NCBI RefSeq assembly: GCF_022834715.1
Contig: NZ_BQKC01000001.1
Span: forward strand, 1,400,501-1,464,500
Length of the DNA: 64,000 nucleotides
DNA from: Granulimonas faecalis
Lineage (GTDB): Bacteria; Actinomycetota; Coriobacteriia; Coriobacteriales; Atopobiaceae
Direction: 5' to 3'
Below, one piece after another: positions 49,521-64,000 of the stretch. The notes under the pieces were generated by a model, which ran no database searches, was not told the DNA's origin, and saw only the letters and a program-made list of their open reading frames with translations. Positions within the stretch are counted from its first letter, which is position 1, and every line of letters starts with the position of its first letter. The position numbers and the translations under genes are program-made.

Positions 49521-50624
49521 CTATCGTAACGTCTCCCCCACCCGCCGGGCAGCCTGCTCCATGGCCGAGAGCGCCGGCCGGTAGTAGTTGCGGTAGGTCG
49601 ACGAGTGCTCCGTGCGGCCGTGCATCTTGTCCACGAGATCCGGGGCGACGCCCGAGTCGAGGGCGATGGTGTCGCTCGTGTGGCGCAGGGTCCCGGGCGG
49701 CACCCGCCTGAGGCCTGACGCCTCCAGGGCGCGGGTCCACTCCTTGTTGAAGTGGCTCTCGCAGAGGTCGACGAGACGCGCCTCGGGGTCGCAGGACCGG
49801 GCGATCTCCATGAGATCGCGGCGCAGCGGCGCGAAGACCGGAACGCTGCGGACGCTGTGGTCGTTCTTCGTGCCCTCCCTGAGGCCGTCGACCTCGTTGT
49901 AGGACCGGCGCACGGTCACCGTCATGGACTCGGTTGCCTCCCCCGTCACGAAGTCGTGCAGGGTGGTCACCGACAGGTCGCGGGGTCGCACCGCCAGGGC
50001 CTCGCTCTTGCGCAGGCCCGAGAGCCCGAGGGCGAGGTATGCCCTGAGCTCGGGGCGCCACGAGCGCGACGCCTCCACGGCCATGGCCACCTCCCGGAGG
50101 TCCCAGGGCTGCACCTGCTCCTTGCGGTGGCGCGGGGCGACGATACGGCGCCTCATGGGCTCCTCGGCGAGGTACCCCATGTCGTAGGCGGAGCGCAGGA
50201 CGGCCCTGAGGACCGCCTTGCAGTTGCGGGGGCTACCGGCCGCCTGGACCACCCGGGCCTGCATGTCGTGGGTGATGCGGTCGAGCCGCACGTCGCCGAG
50301 GGTTGGGAGGACGTACCGACGCATGGCCTGGTCGTAGCCCCTGAGGGTGGTCTTGGTGCGGGGCGTTCCCCGGTTGCTGGGAGTGTCGCGAAAAAGCCCC
50401 CAGTAGAAGTCTGAGAGCGTCATGGAGTCGCCGGCGAGGTCCGACGCCCCGAGCTCGGCGGCCATGCGGACCGCCTCCGCCTCCGCCTCGTCGGCGGATA
50501 CGCCGTACAGGGTGCGTGTGACGCGCCTGCGGGACCCGTCGGACCGGCGACCGCGCGTCACCTGGACCCGGCAGCTGGTCCCGTCATCGGACCACAGGAT
50601 GGTCCCCATCTTGCGCCTGGCCAT
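49521..50624 (-). CDS. Phage integrase, tyrosine recombinase
   Basis: A 367-residue site-specific recombinase, N-terminal arm-binding and SAM-like core-binding domain (about 55-150) followed by the catalytic domain. The box I Arg is in LSGLRKSEALAV; GTLRHTSDTIALDSG carries the box II Arg but has Gly where the usual HxxR His stands; the nucleophile Tyr is in HSSTYRNYYRP. The ATG at 50624 follows GAGGAGGAGG. It lies next to attL and is last in the repressor-RhuM-int unit. Confidence 0.92.
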   Translation of the reverse strand: MARRKMGTILWSDDGTSCRVQVTRGRRSDGSRRRVTRTLYGVSADEAEAEAVRMAAELGASDLAGDSMTLSDFYWGLFRDTPSNRGTPRTKTTLRGYDQAMRRYVLPTLGDVRLDRITHDMQARVVQAAGSPRNCKAVLRAVLRSAYDMGYLAEEPMRRRIVAPRHRKEQVQPWDLREVAMAVEASRSWRPELRAYLALGLSGLRKSEALAVRPRDLSVTTLHDFVTGEATESMTVTVRRSYNEVDGLREGTKNDHSVRSVPVFAPLRRDLMEIARSCDPEARLVDLCESHFNKEWTRALEASGLRRVPPGTLRHTSDTIALDSGVAPDLVDKMHGRTEHSSTYRNYYRPALSAMEQAARRVGETLR

Positions 50625-50682
50625 GAGTGCGCCTCCTCCTCGAGACGATAAGCCGACATGCCCGGGTCCCTCCTTCGAGCGG

Positions 50683-51900
50683 TCAGGGCCGCTCGCGCCC
50701 GCACGCATCCTTGGCCCTCTTCTCCAGGCCCTTGACCGTGCGCAGGTAGTCCTCCTCGACCGGGGAGAGCGTGGCCGCCTGGTACTTCCTGTACTCGCGC
50801 TCGGCCTTCTCCATGGCCATCTTGTGGCTCACAGTCCCGGCATCGTCCAGCACGGGCTGCCCCGTGGACGCCAGCACCTTGTCCAGATGCTCCACGTAGT
50901 CGCTCATGTGCATGGGGTTGTGCCGCATGGCCTGGACTTCGGCGAAGTCGAAGTATCCGGACACGACCCTGTTCAGCACGGCAAGCTCGTCCTCCGTGAG
51001 ATAGTTCTTCGCGACCCGGGCATCGGCGAGGACGGGATGGTCGCCGGAGAACGTCATCAGGCCCATGAAAGGCTTCTCGGCATCCGCCCTCTCGTAGATG
51101 ACCTCGGCTGCGGTGTGGCCATGGGCGGCAAAGTGGAGCTTGTTCTGGACCATCTTGAAGAAGGCGACCGACTCCCGGCTTTTCGGGTCGTAGTCGACGC
51201 TCGTGGCGTAGAGGTCGAGCACCTGACGGTACATGACCTTCTCCGAGGAGCGGATGTCGCGGATGCGCTCGAGGAGCTCGCGCCAGTAGGACCCACCGCC
51301 TGACCCCTTCAGGCGCTCGTCGTCAAGGACGAAGCCCTTGACCATGTACTCCTTCAGGCGCTCGGTGGCCCAGCGGCGGAACTGAGTGGCCGTCTTCGAG
51401 CGCACTCGGTACCCGAGGGAGATGATCATGTCCAGGTTGTAATGGGGGACCTCCCTCGATACGTCGCGGCTCCCCTCTATACGAACCTGTCGGAAATCCC
51501 GACAGGTTGATTGAACGTCGAGCTCACCCTCGTCGTAGATGTTCCCGATATGCTCGACTATGTTCGTTCGGGACGTCTGGAAGAGGTCGGCCATCTGCTG
51601 TTGCGTGAGCCAGACGGTCTCACCCTCGAAGCGGACGTCGATGGCGGGCTCCCCCTCGGCCGACCGGTAGATGACGACCTCCCCCGCCCCCTCATCGTCG
51701 TGGGCGTCGTCCGCCACAATGTCGTCGACCGGGACGCCGAACACGCCGGCGATGGCCTTGAGGCGGGAGACGCCCGGTGTCGCCTTCCCGGACTCCCAGT
51801 TCGACACCGCCTGCGCCGTGACACCGAGCCGGTCGGCAAGATCATGCTGCGTCATGCCCTCCTTGTGACGGAGGGACCTCAACCTGTCAGGAAAACCCAT
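50683..51900 (-). CDS. XRE-RhuM fusion protein
   Basis: A 405-residue protein. Residues 1-65 are an XRE helix-turn-helix (MTQHDLADRLGVTAQAVSNW). Residues 75-400 match the virulence RhuM family: VWLTQQQMADLFQTSRTNI, HYNLDMIISLGYRVRS, ATQFRRWATERLKEYMVKG and FFKMVQNKLHFAAHGHTAAE. RhuM proteins normally lack the HTH domain and their biochemistry is not settled. The gene starts 10 bases after the repressor stop, across a G9 tract that includes its ribosome site, and ends 58 bases before int, so it should be expressed in the lysogen. Confidence 0.88.
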   Translation of the reverse strand: MGFPDRLRSLRHKEGMTQHDLADRLGVTAQAVSNWESGKATPGVSRLKAIAGVFGVPVDDIVADDAHDDEGAGEVVIYRSAEGEPAIDVRFEGETVWLTQQQMADLFQTSRTNIVEHIGNIYDEGELDVQSTCRDFRQVRIEGSRDVSREVPHYNLDMIISLGYRVRSKTATQFRRWATERLKEYMVKGFVLDDERLKGSGGGSYWRELLERIRDIRSSEKVMYRQVLDLYATSVDYDPKSRESVAFFKMVQNKLHFAAHGHTAAEVIYERADAEKPFMGLMTFSGDHPVLADARVAKNYLTEDELAVLNRVVSGYFDFAEVQAMRHNPMHMSDYVEHLDKVLASTGQPVLDDAGTVSHKMAMEKAEREYRKYQAATLSPVEEDYLRTVKGLEKRAKDACGRERP

Positions 51901-51910
51901 CTCCCCCCCC

Positions 51911-52549
51911 CTACTCCCTCAAAAACCCCTGCTCGTACACCACGGTCCCGATGACGCGGACGGCGCCGTCCTCCCAGTGGATGACGATGTCCTCGTGGTG
52001 CTCGGTGCTGTCGGCCACGAGCATCAGGGTGTCGCCGCCCCGGTACCAGCGCCTCACCACGGCCTCGTGGTCCTCGGTCTCCACCACGGCGATGTCGCCG
52101 TTCCTGGGCTCCGTGCCGGGGTCGACCAGGAACCAGTGTCCGTCCGGTATCGCCTTGTTCATGCAGGTGCCCCGGGCGCGCACGGCCCGGGCGTGCGGCC
52201 AGCGCTCCTTGACCTCGGATGGCACGTTGACCACGTCGCCGTCGCCGGACACCGCCTCCTCGTCGAACTCGCCGGCGTGGACCGAGCCGAGGACCATCAT
52301 GGGCACATAGGCCGGGGCGTCGGCCCGGGTGTCGCGGGACGGCAGGGAGGCGGGATCGTAGCCGAGGAGCTGGGCGACGGAGACGCCGAATAGTTCGGCC
52401 AAGCGCTCAATCTTGTTTGGCCGGGGCGTCACCGAACCAGACTCCCACTGGCCAACAGCGACACGAGAGACATCGACCTTGTCGGCCACCTCCTGCTGGG
52501 TGAGGCCGGCCTTTTTCCTTAGCTCCTTTAGCTTCGTACTCACATCCAT
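51911..52549 (-). CDS. Phage repressor, XRE-S24 type, with altered protease dyad
   Basis: A 212-residue CI/LexA-like repressor: HTH at residues 1-65 (LTQQEVADKVDVSRVAVGQW) and an S24-like C-terminal domain from about 90. The usual catalytic Ser site (GDSM) reads ARGTCMNKAIPDG and the usual Lys (VKR) reads AVVRRWYR, so the Ser/Lys dyad for self-cleavage is not conserved. The ATG at 52549 follows AAAAGG. It should hold the lysogenic state, facing the cro-like gene across a 130-base operator region. Confidence 0.88.
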   Translation of the reverse strand: MDVSTKLKELRKKAGLTQQEVADKVDVSRVAVGQWESGSVTPRPNKIERLAELFGVSVAQLLGYDPASLPSRDTRADAPAYVPMMVLGSVHAGEFDEEAVSGDGDVVNVPSEVKERWPHARAVRARGTCMNKAIPDGHWFLVDPGTEPRNGDIAVVETEDHEAVVRRWYRGGDTLMLVADSTEHHEDIVIHWEDGAVRVIGTVVYEQGFLRE

Positions 52550-55681: not shown

Positions 55682-55852
55682 ATGACCGAACACGAGCGGA
55701 AGCTCTGCATGGCGCTGCGCGCCCTGGCAGACATCGCCCTGGTGGACGACGCCCTGCGCACGCACGCCGAGGAGAGGGCCGAGCGCGCCGAGAGGGAGCG
55801 CGCCAGGTTCTTCTACGCCGACGACAACGCGAGCCCCGAGGACGGTGAGTGA
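55682..55852 (+). CDS. Small charged phage protein (56 residues)
   Basis: MTEHERKLCMALRALADIAL begins a mostly helical protein with a Glu/Arg-rich middle (EERAERAERERARFF) and an acidic end (DDNASPEDGE). AAAGGA precedes the ATG at 55682, and the stop overlaps the GTG start of the RecT-like gene by eight bases, which supports it as real. Unknown role. Confidence 0.6.
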   Translation: MTEHERKLCMALRALADIALVDDALRTHAEERAERAERERARFFYADDNASPEDGE

Positions 55853-56708
55853 CGTGGCGGCCACCCAGCTCGCGGCGCCCGCCGCGCCCCAGGCCCTGAC
55901 CATGGCCGACCAGTGGAACTTCGCCAACACCGTGGCCCAGGGGAGCCTGGTGCCCATCGCCTACCGCAACTCGCCCGCCAACGTCCTCATCGCCGTGGGC
56001 CTCGGCACCTCCATGGGCCTGTCCCCGGCCGAGAGCCTCTACCGCATCAACGTCATCCAGGGCAAGCCCACGGCGTCGGCCGAGCTCATCGCCGCCCAGG
56101 TCCGCAAGGCCGGCCACAAGCTCCGCATCGCCAAGGACGAGGCGGCCCAGAGCGTCACGGCCACGGTGGTGCGCTGCGACGACCCGGACTACCCCATCTC
56201 CGTGACCCGGGACCGGGCGTGGGCCGAGGCCATGGGCCTCGCCGCCAAGGAGAACTACGTCAGGCAGCCCATGACCATGCTCACCTGGCGCGCCATCACG
56301 GCGGCGGCCCGGGAGGCCTGCCCCGAGGCGCTCTACGGGGTCGCCTACACGCCCGACGAGATGCACGACATGGACCCGGCGCCCCGGGAGGCGGCCCCCG
56401 TGACCGTCGTGGACGCGACGCCGGCCCCCGAGCCGCAGGCGTCGACGCAGCCCGAGCCGCAGGCCGCCACCGCGCGGCTCTCCCCCGAGCAGGCCGCCTT
56501 CATGCGCGACGCCGCCAAGCGCCTGGCAACAGCCCTCGGCAAGGACGAGGAGACCGTGGCCCGGGAGCTGGTGGCGGCCCACGGCGACCCGAGGGACCAC
56601 CTGGGCGACTGGGACGCCTATGCGGCCAAGGTGGCCGAGACGCTCGAGGGCATGGGCGCCGCCCCGGCGGCGCAGGCCGCCGAGGAGCCCGACGAGATCG
56701 AGTTCTAG
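55845..56708 (+). CDS. RecT-family single-strand annealing protein
   Basis: A 287-residue recombinase. QWNFANTVAQGSLVPIAYRN, then VLIAVGLGTSMGLSPAESLY, KPTASAELIAAQVRKAGHKL and the conserved LTWRAITAAAREACPEALYG with YTPDEM match actinophage RecT-like proteins. The Ala/Pro/Gln linker and the C-terminal helix are variable. It starts at GTG 55845 inside the end of the small gene before it. A paired exonuclease is not seen. Confidence 0.85.
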   Translation: MSDVAATQLAAPAAPQALTMADQWNFANTVAQGSLVPIAYRNSPANVLIAVGLGTSMGLSPAESLYRINVIQGKPTASAELIAAQVRKAGHKLRIAKDEAAQSVTATVVRCDDPDYPISVTRDRAWAEAMGLAAKENYVRQPMTMLTWRAITAAAREACPEALYGVAYTPDEMHDMDPAPREAAPVTVVDATPAPEPQASTQPEPQAATARLSPEQAAFMRDAAKRLATALGKDEETVARELVAAHGDPRDHLGDWDAYAAKVAETLEGMGAAPAAQAAEEPDEIEF

Positions 56709-59723: not shown

Positions 59724-60530
59724 GTGGGCGTGACCATACAGGAGGACATGTACGAGGCCGCCGAGTTCATGCCTCCCGAGCAGAGGCAGCCGTTCATCGC
59801 GGCGCTGGTGGCCTTCGGGCTGTCCGGGGTGCTCCCCGACGAGGGCGAGCCGTGGTACCCGACCTTCCACGTATGCCGGCGCCGTCTCGAGATGAGCGCG
59901 AAGCGCTCCAATGGCGGACGTAAGTCGGTAGCTAAAAGGTGGGCTAATAGGCAGGAAGAAGGTACCTCCATAGGTACCTATAAGGACACCGACGAAGGTA
60001 CCTCCATAGGTACCTATAAGGACACCGACGAAGGTACCAACGATAGGTGCCGCGTAGGTACCAACGATAGGTGCCGCGTAGGTACCAACGATAGGTGCCG
60101 CGTAGGTACCAACTCTACTGAGGTGAGTAGAGGTGAGAATGAGGTGAGGATGAGGAGTGGTGAGGAGAGTTCTAAACGCATAGAGTCCGGCACGGACGAC
60201 GGGGGCTCCCCCATGCCCGACGGGCCGGTGCCCTACGGCGCGATCGTCGGCCGCCTCAACCAGCGCGCGGGCGCCGACTACCGCCCGTCGTCTAGGGCCA
60301 CCCGCCGCCTCATCGACGCGAGGTGGCGCGAGGGCTACCGCCTCCCCGACTTCGAGGCCGTCGTCGACGCCAAGTGCTCCGAGTGGGCCGGGACCGAGAT
60401 GGCCAAGTACCTCCGGCCCCAGACCCTCTTCGGCACGAAGTTCGAGGCCTACCGCTCCCAGGCCTCCATGGACCGGGGAGGGGGTGCGCCCGATGGCTGG
60501 TACGACTTCGCGTCGCTCGACGCCGAGTGA
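59724..60530 (+). CDS. Phage replication protein (DnaD/O-like) containing the origin repeats
   Basis: A 268-residue initiator-like protein. The N-terminal domain (QEDMYEAAEFMPPEQRQPFI, WYPTFHVCRRRLEMSAKRS) matches the DUF6291-type start, and the C-terminal domain (VGRLNQRAGADYRPSSRATR, FEAVVDAKCSEW, LRPQTLFGTKFEAY) is the conserved phage replication C-terminus. Between them lies a region of protein repeats (GTSIGTYKDTDE twice, GTNDRCRV three times) that is simply the translation of DNA iterons. Start is GTG 59724. The next gene encodes the DnaC-like loader. Confidence 0.85.
   Translation: MGVTIQEDMYEAAEFMPPEQRQPFIAALVAFGLSGVLPDEGEPWYPTFHVCRRRLEMSAKRSNGGRKSVAKRWANRQEEGTSIGTYKDTDEGTSIGTYKDTDEGTNDRCRVGTNDRCRVGTNDRCRVGTNSTEVSRGENEVRMRSGEESSKRIESGTDDGGSPMPDGPVPYGAIVGRLNQRAGADYRPSSRATRRLIDARWREGYRLPDFEAVVDAKCSEWAGTEMAKYLRPQTLFGTKFEAYRSQASMDRGGGAPDGWYDFASLDAE
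59958..60120. repeat. Iteron array, probable phage replication origin
   Basis: Two perfect 36-base repeats (59958-59993, 59994-60029; begin GAAGGTACCTCCATAGG) and three perfect 24-base repeats (60033-60056, 60057-60080, 60081-60104; begin GGTACCAACGATAGGTGCCG) plus a partial fourth. GGTACC recurs eight times. The array is inside the replication gene, as in lambda O, and is followed by a relatively AT-rich stretch (60110-60190). Confidence 0.9.
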
Positions 60531-61191
60531 GGCCTGGGCCCCCTACCCGCCCGACCCGGCGTGGGTGCGCTCCCGCACCCGGGCGCCCAGGGCCTACGGG
60601 TGGGTGGAGGCCGACGGGGCCTACGCCCCCGAGCTCGCCGCGGGGGGCCTCTGGCTCTTCGGCGACGGGGGCTGCGGCAAGACGGCGCTCGTCCACGCCA
60701 TCCGCCTGTGGTGGGACGGCTCCCACGTGGCCGTGACCGAGCCCGACGCCCTCACCGGGGTGCGTTGGTGCGGCGTCCGGGAGCGGTCCGTCTACGTCCT
60801 CGAGGACGAGATGGTGGACCGGCTGGACCAGGCGGGCCGGTCCTGGCGGGCCGACTTCTCCGCGGAGCTGGCGCAGTACGCCGAGGCGCCGCTGCTCTGC
60901 GTCGACGACGCCGGCGAGGCCGAGCCCACCAAGGCGGCCTACAAGGCCTGGTACCGGGTGCTCACGGCCCGTTCCGAGGCCGGGCTCCCCACGGTGGCGG
61001 CCAGCCGGTCGGGGCTCGGGGACTTCTGCGAGGCCTTCGCCCGCTCCAGGAGCGTGAGGCCCGCCCAGGCGGGGCGCCTCGGGGAGCTGGTGCGGCGCTC
61101 CATGGTGCCGCGCCGGGTGAGGGGGCGCGCGGATGGCCCTGGGGGGACGCAGGGCGCCGGGAAACGGGAGCTGGGGGTGGTGCCGGGGTGA
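60493..61191 (+). CDS. DnaC-like AAA+ helicase loader
   Basis: A 232-residue ATPase with Walker A LWLFGDGGCGKTALV and Walker B PLLCVDDAGEAEP; a Sensor-type Arg/Asn region follows (VAASRSGLGDFCEAF). It probably loads the host helicase at the origin with the preceding initiator. The ATG at 60493 follows GGGAGGGGG and overlaps the previous gene by 38 bases; a GTG nine bases upstream is an alternative. Confidence 0.8.
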   Translation: MAGTTSRRSTPSEAWAPYPPDPAWVRSRTRAPRAYGWVEADGAYAPELAAGGLWLFGDGGCGKTALVHAIRLWWDGSHVAVTEPDALTGVRWCGVRERSVYVLEDEMVDRLDQAGRSWRADFSAELAQYAEAPLLCVDDAGEAEPTKAAYKAWYRVLTARSEAGLPTVAASRSGLGDFCEAFARSRSVRPAQAGRLGELVRRSMVPRRVRGRADGPGGTQGAGKRELGVVPG

Positions 61192-61436: not shown

Positions 61437-61857
61437 GCGCGTCGGGACCGGAGATGGGGCATTTGCCCCATCCACAGAAAGCACACAGAAATCTCCAAGG
61501 CCCCTGTACCGGCTCTGGACGCCGGGCGAGCTCGGGCGGGTGCTCGCCCACCCGGAGATGACCGCGGCGGAGCTCGCGGCGATGCTGCCGGGGCGCACGG
61601 CCAAGGCGGTCAGGCGCATCCGGGAGCGCCACGGCAGGCGCGCCGCCGGCTCCACGCCGGCGTGCCGGTGCTGCGACGCGCGCCCGGTGTGGGAGGAGAG
61701 CCCGCGGGCCCGGCGCATGGGGCTCTGCAAGGGGTGCTACCTGGACGAGATGGAGCGGCGCTCGGCTGAGGACGCGAGGGCCGGCGCCCTGCGCAAGCGG
61801 ATGCACGACGCGAGGGCCCGCGAAGCGCGGGCCAAGCGCGGGAAAGGAGAGGCATGA
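61429..61857 (+). CDS. Putative zinc-finger DNA-binding phage protein
   Basis: A 142-residue protein: a helix-turn-helix-like middle (HPEMTAAELAAMLPGRTAKA, VRRIRERHGRR) and a Cys4 cluster (ACRCCDARP and LCKGCYLDE) followed by a basic helical tail. It is like small phage regulators of late genes, but this is inference. GTG start at 61429 overlaps the previous gene; its stop overlaps the methyltransferase start. Confidence 0.55.
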   Translation: MAERVGTGDGAFAPSTESTQKSPRPLYRLWTPGELGRVLAHPEMTAAELAAMLPGRTAKAVRRIRERHGRRAAGSTPACRCCDARPVWEESPRARRMGLCKGCYLDEMERRSAEDARAGALRKRMHDARAREARAKRGKGEA

Positions 61858-63124
61858 CCATGCGGGTGAGGGAGGTGCCCATCGGGGACGTGGTGCCCTA
61901 CGAGGGCAACCCCAGGGACAACGAGGCGGCGGTGCCGGCGGTGGCCGAGAGCCTCAGGGAGTTCGGTTGGCGCCAGCCCATCGTGGTGGACGCCGACATG
62001 ACGGTGGTCTGCGGCCACACGCGCCTCAAGGCCGCCCGGCGCCTCGGCATGGAGACGGTGCCGGTGGTGGTGGCCGACGACCTCACGGCCGAGCAGGTGG
62101 CGGCCTACAGGCTCGCCGACAACCGCACCGCGGAGCTCGCCGAGTGGGACCTCGACCTGCTGGGCCAGGAGCTCGACGGCCTGACCGACCTCGACATGGG
62201 CCGCTTCGGCTTCGACGGCTTCGAGGATGCGCTCAAGACCCCCGAGGAGCAGATCGCCGACGTGGCGGAGGACGAGGTGCCTGGCCCCGACGAGGTGGAG
62301 CCGAGGTGCCGCCCCGGCGAGCTCTGGCGCCTCGGGGACCACCTGCTGCTCTGCGCCGACGCGACCGACGCCGAGGCGGTGGACCGCCTGCTCGGGGGGG
62401 GGGGGAGTCCGTTGACCTCCTCCTGACCGACCCGCCCTACGGCGTGGCCTACACCGGCGGCACCGTCGAGGGGCCCACCATCGAGAACGACGACATGGAA
62501 GACGAAGCCTTCACCGGGTTCCTGACCGCGGCGCTCTCCTGCGCCCTCGCCCACATGCGGCCCGGGGCGTCCTTCTACCTCTGGCACGCAGACACCCGCC
62601 GGGACCCGTTCACGAGGGCCCTCGACGCCTGCGGCGCCCGGGCCCGCCAGGTGCTCGTGTGGGTGAAGGGCTCCTTCGCCCTCGGCCGCCAGGACTACCG
62701 GTGGCAGCACGAGCCGTGCCTCTACGGCTGGAAGGAGGGGGCCGCCCACTACTTCGACCCGAGCCGCAGCGAGTCCACCGTCATCGAGGACGTGGACCTG
62801 GGGTCGCTCACCAAGGCCCAGCTGCTAGAGCGCCTGCGGGCGGTCTGCGCGGGGCCCTCCACGGTCGTCCGTTGCGAGAGGCCGCCGAGGAGCGCCGAGC
62901 ACCCGACCATGAAGCCCGTGCGGCTCATCGCCTACCTCATGGCCAACAGCTCGCGCAGGGGCGACACGGTGCTCGACCCGTTCGTGGGCTCGGGGACCAC
63001 CGTCGTGGCCTGCGAGCAGATGGGCCGGGCGTGCCGCGCCATGGAGCTGGACCCGAGGTACTGCGACGTCGCCATAGGGCGCTGGGAGCGGCTCACCGGC
63101 GGCACGGCCGTCAGGGAGGGTTGA
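61854..63124 (+). pseudogene. ParB-like/DNA methyltransferase fusion, interrupted at a G12 tract (possibly phase-variable)
   Basis: The first frame (61854-62426) encodes a ParB/Srx nuclease-like domain: VPIGDVVPYEGNPRDNE, VCGHTRLKAARRLGM, YRLADNRTAELAEWD. It stops soon after LLGGGG. The second frame continues from ESVDLLLTDPPYGVAYTGGT to 63124 and carries DPPY (motif IV) before VLDPFVGSGTTVVACEQMG (motif I), the order of beta-class adenine methyltransferases. Ten or thirteen G instead of twelve at 62394-62405 would make one protein of about 423 residues. The tract may switch the enzyme on and off, or may be a read error. Confidence 0.85.
62394..62405 (+). repeat. Poly-G tract, 12 bases, within the methyltransferase gene
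   Basis: G12 at the exact point where the ParB-like and methyltransferase frames part. It is the longest homopolymer I noticed in the window. Confidence 0.95.
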
Positions 63125-63193: not shown

Positions 63194-64000
63194 ATGGCGA
63201 CGAAGAAGAGGGACCCCAGGGACAACTTGAACCCGCCCATCCGCACCAGCGAGGAGGCCAGGCGCCTCGGCGCCAGGGGCGGCCGGCGCTCCGGCGAGGT
63301 GCGCCGCGCCCGGCGGAGCCTGCGCGACCTCGCCCTCGACATCATCGACTCCCCCGCCCCGCCCAAGCTCGCGGCCCAGGTGCGCACCATCGCCCCGGGA
63401 CTCGACGAGGTGACCACGGGGGCCGTCATGCTCGCCGGGCAGGTCAACGCGGCGGCCAACGGCAACGCCCAGGCCTTCCGCGCCGTCACCGAGCTGGCGG
63501 GCGTCGACGGAGGCGGGGACGCCGGGGAGGACCGCCCGTGGGCGGCCGACATGGCCCTGCTCATCGGGCGGGACTTCGTGGACGCCCACCGCGGCCTCGC
63601 GTCCGGCGAGGCCTGCGACCTGTGGCTGCCGGGCGGGCGCGGCTCGCTCAAGAGCTCATTCGCCTCGCTGGAGATCGCCTGCGGCCTCATGCGGGACCCC
63701 GACGCCAACGCCCTGGTCATCCAGAGCCGCCGGGTGAACCTGCGCGACGCGTCCATGGCCCAGATGCTCTGGGCCTTCGACCGCCTCGGCGTGGCCGACC
63801 TGTGGGTGCCCACGGGCTCCACCCTGCGCATCAACAACCGCGAGACCGGCCAGGCGGTCGTCTTCCGGGGATGCGACGAGCCCAAGAAGCTGAAGTCCAT
63901 CAAGCTCAGACGCGGCCACTGGCGCTACCTCTGGGTCGAGGAGGCCGACCTCCTGCGCGGCATGGCGGAGGTGCGCTCCGTCCGCCAGACGGTCAGCCGC
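63194..64000 (+). CDS. Phage terminase with small-subunit-like N-terminus and PBSX-type large-subunit domain, 3' end outside window
   Basis: One open frame of 269 codons to the window edge. Residues 15-60 (IRTSEEARRLGARGGRRSGE, then VRRARRSLRDLALDI) match the small-subunit Gly-Gly-basic domain; from about residue 140 the PBSX/SPP1-type large subunit begins with P-loop LPGGRGSLKSSFASLEI, QMLWAFDRLGVADLWV, VVFRGCDEPKKLKSIKLRRG and Walker B YLWVEEADL. The two subunits are usually separate genes; here no stop lies between them. The ATG at 63194 starts the packaging module. Confidence 0.85.
   Translation, partial: MATKKRDPRDNLNPPIRTSEEARRLGARGGRRSGEVRRARRSLRDLALDIIDSPAPPKLAAQVRTIAPGLDEVTTGAVMLAGQVNAAANGNAQAFRAVTELAGVDGGGDAGEDRPWAADMALLIGRDFVDAHRGLASGEACDLWLPGGRGSLKSSFASLEIACGLMRDPDANALVIQSRRVNLRDASMAQMLWAFDRLGVADLWVPTGSTLRINNRETGQAVVFRGCDEPKKLKSIKLRRGHWRYLWVEEADLLRGMAEVRSVRQTVSR

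Follow-up and report, generated by a model that had tools for sequence, protein, structure and literature searches.

Can a run of guanines inside a prophage gene switch a DNA methyltransferase (MTase) on and off, or does it mark a damaged or misread gene? This question is raised by a locus of Granulimonas faecalis, in which a ParB-like domain and an MTase domain follow each other in two different reading frames. The window analyzed here is the stretch of 64,000 nucleotides that carries this locus. The host genome has a size of 2.23 Mb in two contigs and a G+C content of about 70% (70-74% in the window region).

Gene organization of the prophage and the tract gene

A temperate prophage occupies the window from about 49.5 kb rightwards. 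Genes for an integrase (49524..50708; phrog_1, E 1.6e-28) and a repressor-like transcriptional regulator (50686..51900; phrog_8, phrog_3) are located on the minus strand. The plus strand encodes a RecT-like annealing protein (55845..56708; phrog_561), a phage replication initiation protein (59724..60530; phrog_428, Pfam Phg_2220_C) and a DnaC-like helicase loader (60484..61191; phrog_3277). RusA and SSB are also encoded in the prophage. The neighbors of the tract gene are the DnaC-like loader, a small protein and the large terminase subunit (63194..64000, plus strand; PHROG/Pfam terminase), which runs past the window end (L206 2195-3829) and is followed by portal, minor head and major head proteins. 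No partner type III nuclease was found among these neighbors, so that the locus does not correspond to a phase-variable type III restriction-modification (mod) system.

The ParB-like N-terminal part, together with a short MTase stub, is encoded at 61854..62426 on the plus strand (Pfam PF02195 (ParB_N), E 1.1e-7). The MTase part, of the class beta N6_N4 type, follows in another frame of the same strand at 62405..63124 (Pfam PF01555, E 2.5e-22). A G12 homopolymer, the proposed slipped-strand switch, is located at 62394..62405 (plus strand). The ParB frame stops seven codons beyond G12 (C-terminus SPLTSS, then stop), and the whole predicted product of the gene at this tract length is the ParB-like part with the stub, 190 aa in total. 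The MTase frame is open up to its own stop, with 239 codons free of stops, and all motifs are intact. The codons of catalytic motif IV (DPPY; 62429..62440, plus strand) lie 23 nt 3' of the tract, and those of the SAM-binding motif I (DPFVGSGT; 62975..62998, plus strand) are located downstream of motif IV. DPPY is invariant in 42 homologues, as is the G-S-G of motif I.

In a profile search, both frames matched PHROG 498, a family in which a ParB-like N-terminus is continuous with an N6_N4 MTase. The ParB half covers profile positions 31-221 and the MTase half positions 222-430, with E-values of 1.1e-52 and 2e-82 for the two frames. Since the two halves are continuous on the profile, they represent one protein, which is broken exactly at G12. 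This agrees with the original prediction, which had described two intact domains in different frames that part exactly at the tract. It had also claimed that 10 or 13 G restore one protein, and the gene is indeed in frame at tract lengths of 1 mod 3 (7, 10, 13). The long homopolymer thus sets the reading frame by its length, as in a contingency locus, and G12 corresponds to the OFF state.

From the tract to DPPY, the MTase frame offers no ATG, GTG or TTG as a start codon, and an in-frame GTG follows only after DPPY. Production of a separate active MTase by internal restart is therefore unlikely. A canonical ParB CTPase carries the CTP-binding motif GERRxRA. This motif is absent from the window gene, which has GHTRLKA at that place; the N-terminus is therefore ParB-like, but not a chromosome-type ParB.

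Position of the tract in the predicted protein

An AlphaFold model (mean pLDDT 87) was built for the in-frame homologue of Collinsella intestinalis, whose N-terminus resembles ParB by profile, using 42 aligned sequences. The tract glycines of this homologue lie in a turn that connects a short helix (176-183) to the strand (188-193) leading into DPPY (194-197). The inter-domain linker (134-142) is modeled with low confidence. According to the model, the tract encodes a Gly turn within the N-terminal part of the MTase domain and not the inter-domain linker. The earlier placing of the tract at the point where the frames split is correct; the tract does not, however, lie between the two domains.

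In the window gene, motif IV (DPPY) is N-terminal to motif I (FxGSG), which is the order of class beta, and the fold of the MTase model matches 5hfj and 6pbd. Fold and motif order are shared with the class beta m6A MTases M1.HpyAVI, CcrM, M.BceJIV and MboIIA (5hfj, 6pbd, 8urk, 1g60), although the identity is only about 20% and the alignment is confined to the MTase part of the model. DPPY usually marks m6A MTases; by fold, an N4-cytosine enzyme fits the model equally well. N6-adenine is the probable target of the predicted MTase, which is presumably an active enzyme.

Tract length in related phage genes

The closest relatives of the window gene are found on two IMG/VR contigs (L039 and L040) with a DNA identity of 98.4-98.5%. 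Both have a G8 tract and are also OFF; they may represent one phage from related samples. In the comparison with L039, the tract difference of 4 nt is the sole gap across the gene, and the MTase part shows 96% aa identity. The dN/dS of this pair is 0.44 in the MTase frame and 0.85-1.08 in the other frames, which is suggestive of constraint on the MTase part, the 20 substitutions being too few to decide. A pattern with the gene's own flanks matched only the two G8 contigs, and no ON copy of the exact window lineage was found.

Tract length also differs between other near-identical copies, as expected for a contingency locus. The contigs L078 (G10, OFF) and L081 (G9, ON) do not differ at all in the 1,696 nt before the tract and the 3,701 nt after it. 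In a further group, L217 (G11), L048 (G10), L126 (G15) and L297 (G18) show about 99% identity downstream and no other gap. The near-identical pair L225 and L312 has tracts of G9 and G10, and L319 and L321 have G10 and G12. In metagenome assemblies, the count of a homopolymer of at least 9 nt may be off by one base, and single-G differences such as that between L078 and L081 could therefore have a technical origin. Technical error does not readily account for the 8/12 and 10/15/18 differences or for the position-specific excess of G-runs described below.

Among 398 genomes of the host's class, a pattern search identified two further tract-bearing genomes, Collinsella intestinalis DSM 13280 (G165), which belongs to the order of the host, with an in-frame G9 tract and a second one (G360) with G13. 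Both C. intestinalis DSM 13280 and Anaerocaecibacter muris CLA-AA-M11, the latter with an out-of-frame G15 tract, are cultured strains. Among phage isolates, homologues of the MTase occur in 258 records, all of them with less than 60% identity and none near-identical, and hence no named phage of the window lineage can be given. Overall, in many related phage genes the tract sits at one and the same codon position, with lengths ranging from 7 to 18. A tract fixed at 12 with decay of the downstream domain, which had been named as the outcome that would speak against a switch, was looked for in the related phage genes and not observed, as lengths vary and the domain is intact.

Frame state and inheritance of the tract

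A recognizable ParB-like upstream part is present in 123 of 145 tract genes examined. Of these, 69 are in frame and 54 are out of frame (44 in +1, 10 in +2); the set was gathered by requiring G9+, and these ON and OFF fractions are not population frequencies. In the complete cases, an MTase frame of at least 150 codons is found in 63 of 63 ON copies, 41 of 41 copies in +1 and 8 of 9 copies in +2. The downstream MTase is thus intact in 112 of 113 complete tract genes, including 49 of 50 OFF copies. As was anticipated for a phase-variable gene, both states occur side by side, with no decay of the downstream domain in the OFF copies.

When homologues collected regardless of a tract were compared, 9 of 11 with a G7+ run had a frame break at the site, compared with 0 of 132 lacking such a run (Fisher p about 1e-12). 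Two candidates for tract-free frame breaks (L043 and L097) were rejected, because their breaks fall upstream of the site.

In a tree of 267 MTase domains, the presence of the tract changes 24 times, compared with a mean of 88 after shuffling. The ON/OFF state changes 30 times, compared with a shuffled mean of 37 (range 30-41). Along the tree, the tract is passed on but its ON/OFF state hardly so, which is the trace expected from a fast switch. The tract genes fall into 68 clusters at 70% aa identity, so that the site is used in many phage lineages.

Frequency of G-runs at the site

G12 is the longest G/C run of the window, in which all remaining runs of at least 8 nt measure 8-9 nt. A pattern search of the 2.23 Mb genome revealed only four other G/C runs of at least 12 nt (24, 21, 17 and 12 nt), all of which look intergenic by inspection. 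In IMG/VR viral contigs, a G9+ run located 12-36 nt 5' of GAYCCNCCNTAYRR (DPPY codons) was found in at least 120 stretches, and a G11+ run in the same position in 34 stretches (complete count). As controls, C9 at the same place gave 5 stretches and G9 at equal distance downstream of DPPY, searched with a slightly narrower motif, gave 6. Inside the bodies of tract-bearing genes, only three other G/C runs of at least 8 nt were detected in 184 kb. A chance run is ruled out by the two controls and by this scarcity of other runs. The site ahead of DPPY is a hotspot for G-runs in phage MTase genes.

Runs of G9-G11 before DPPY were also observed in MTases without a recognizable ParB part (L224, L233, L241, L255 and L289), and the switch point may extend beyond ParB fusions. 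The host genome runs of 24, 21 and 17 nt (G000:C1:427277-427300, C1:1925321-1925341 and C2:74270-74286) are apparently intergenic, and one of them starts directly after a stop codon. Runs of this length are unusual even at 70% G+C. The second G12 of the genome (G000:C1:698583-698594; L201 2073-2101) is part of the 17-nt spacer that separates TTGACT from CATAAT and represents a candidate phase-variable promoter. A short ORF and a T-rich stretch come after it.

Alternative explanations

Long G-runs are prone to assembly and sequencing error, and the true tract might be in frame and fixed. However, two contigs of a close relative show G8 and are likewise out of frame, and differences of 4-8 Gs exceed typical one-base miscalls. 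In addition, many unrelated assemblies have long runs at this single codon position, while such runs are nearly absent from the rest of the same genes; an error would account for a wrong count, but not for the existence of the run. We therefore regard such an error as very unlikely. A plain frameshift in an unneeded gene of a degrading prophage would agree with the window gene being out of frame in the sole genome of its genus that was examined. Against such decay stand the stop-free MTase codons with their intact motifs, the flanking prophage genes, which are recognizable and open from the integrase through the major head protein, and the preservation of the MTase frame in nearly all complete OFF copies elsewhere, which together leave it a negligible probability. 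The run could also reflect codon bias, if a conserved Gly-Gly(-Gly) turn were written as GGG in G+C-rich genomes without any selection for switching. Gly-Gly is common at the site in homologues, the window region is itself rich in G+C, and the run is not universal: about 10% of the homologues collected regardless of a tract have a G7+ run at the site, and 131 of 164 homologue rows have no run of at least 5 there. Nevertheless, the flanks are below 50% G+C in 58 of 145 tract genes and below 45% in 31, GGG makes up only 15% of the Gly codons 3' of the tract in the same genes, and runs of 10-18 surpass the needs of a two- or three-Gly turn. Codon bias as the whole explanation is highly improbable, but the Gly turn may account for the switch arising here so often.

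Another explanation is recoding through slippage of RNA polymerase or the ribosome on the G-run. OFF copies would then still yield some full-length enzyme, and the tract would set the ratio of ParB to ParB-MTase rather than an on/off state. Neither the window gene (G12) nor the relatives closest to it (G8) are in frame, yet the MTase frame stays open in all of them, and OFF copies are frequent (54/123), all of which would suit recoding. Programmed slippage usually holds tract length and frame fixed, and recoding neither requires nor accounts for lengths from 7 to 18 or for 69 of 123 copies being in frame. We consider recoding unlikely, although it could coexist with phase variation.

Proposed switch and its possible benefit

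The evidence, which comes from sequence comparison, fits slipped-strand phase variation and argues against decay, chance and a one-off assembly error. In our view, the window gene is very probably a contingency gene of a temperate phage, phase-variable through slipped-strand mispairing at the G-run, with bet-hedging as the likeliest benefit. Slipped-strand mispairing at long homopolymers is an established cause of phase variation in bacteria and is the probable cause of the length variation described here. The G-run would act as a hypermutable simple repeat that gains or loses Gs when the DNA is replicated. Tract lengths of 1 mod 3 would give the fusion of the ParB-like part and the DNA-adenine-methyltransferase (ON). 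At the remaining lengths, translation would stop just beyond the tract, and the ParB-like part with a short stub would lack both catalytic motifs (DPPY and the SAM motif) (OFF). The conserved Gly turn ahead of the DPPY strand should tolerate one or more added glycines, so that several ON lengths may be possible.

The likeliest benefit would be bet-hedging of the DNA methylation of phage and lysogen, presumably with respect to restriction. In the ON state, the mark would protect against hosts whose restriction enzymes it blocks. The cost would arise in hosts that cleave methylated DNA or in which the mark disturbs regulation. The host genome encodes two clear Mrr-type nuclease domain proteins (G000:C1:414913-415245 and C2:63824-64147), which are candidates for methylation-dependent restriction, and one weak match; the only N6_N4 MTase domain in the genome is that of the prophage. 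On this basis, ordinary restriction and methylation-dependent restriction might plausibly be traded off against each other. A wider proposal can be offered only tentatively, and we find it rather doubtful. The Gly turn before DPPY would be a recurrent convergent switch point of phage MTases. In phages of many bacterial lineages, the alternation between the ParB-like part alone and the ParB-MTase would hedge between ordinary restriction, from which methylation protects, and Mrr-type restriction, to which it exposes the phage, and lysogens would inherit a switching methylome.

DNA methylation is usually regarded as a fixed property of a phage. A heritable, reversible switch at a single codon position of many unrelated phages, if real, would place methylated and unmethylated genomes side by side in one phage population, with consequences for host range, restriction, induction and the gene expression of lysogens. 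Automated annotation likely splits such tract genes or labels them as pseudogenes.

Comparison with known systems

For Campylobacter phages, hypermutable polyG tracts are described to switch the receptor-binding protein (Sorensen et al., 2021, Cell Rep 35:109214, cited by PMC11868660 and PMC9311878). According to these citing papers, a phage gene with a polyG tract leads to phenotypic diversity in the phage population, which resembles the locus described here. In contrast to the receptor-binding protein, the gene concerned here is a ParB-MTase and occurs in phages of many unrelated hosts, including an actinobacterium with 70% G+C. The review PMC9311878 also mentions Pseudomonas and Bordetella phages for polyG variation, without detail. 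Phase-variable MTases are known from bacteria, for example modH5 among the type III mod genes (PMC5700931), a type IIG MTase in C. jejuni (PMC4889913) and a type III gene of H. pylori with a G9 tract (PMC12003011). As in these MTases and phasevarions, a homopolymer in the MTase frame would determine on and off by its length modulo 3. The bacterial examples are usually type III mod or type IIG genes, whereas the phage gene found here encodes a class beta MTase joined to a ParB-like domain.

The window frames match the phage family PHROG 498 ("DNA methyltransferase") end to end, but its annotation mentions no switch. Orphan MTases of phages confer protection from restriction (Murphy et al., 2013, cited in PMC7468147), and the prophage adenine MTase pamA alters host gene expression (PMC12435837). 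Like these, the tract gene is a phage MTase without a nearby partner nuclease, and they indicate what the ON state could do; repeat switching is not described for them in the sources cited, and pamA is Dam-like.

In the open-access literature, phage polyG variation is detailed only for Campylobacter phages and MTase variation only for bacteria. No report of polyG switching of phage ParB-MTases was found there, such absence being weak evidence, and the combination is apparently unreported. In view of the Campylobacter-phage precedent, the locus would best be read as a phage ParB-MTase that is subject to the same process.

Further observations on the prophage

The repressor gene of the prophage is preceded by a G9 run (window 51903-51911, minus strand) two bases 5' of its ATG, at the position of the ribosome-binding site. 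The length of this run could tune translation of the repressor. The replication initiator contains tandem in-frame repeats at window 59961-60100 with units of about 12 and about 8 codons, whose copy number differs from that of the relative L208 (36- and 48-nt gaps). The phage minor head protein (L206 5229-6728) carries a C-terminal Ntox50 domain (Pfam PF15542).
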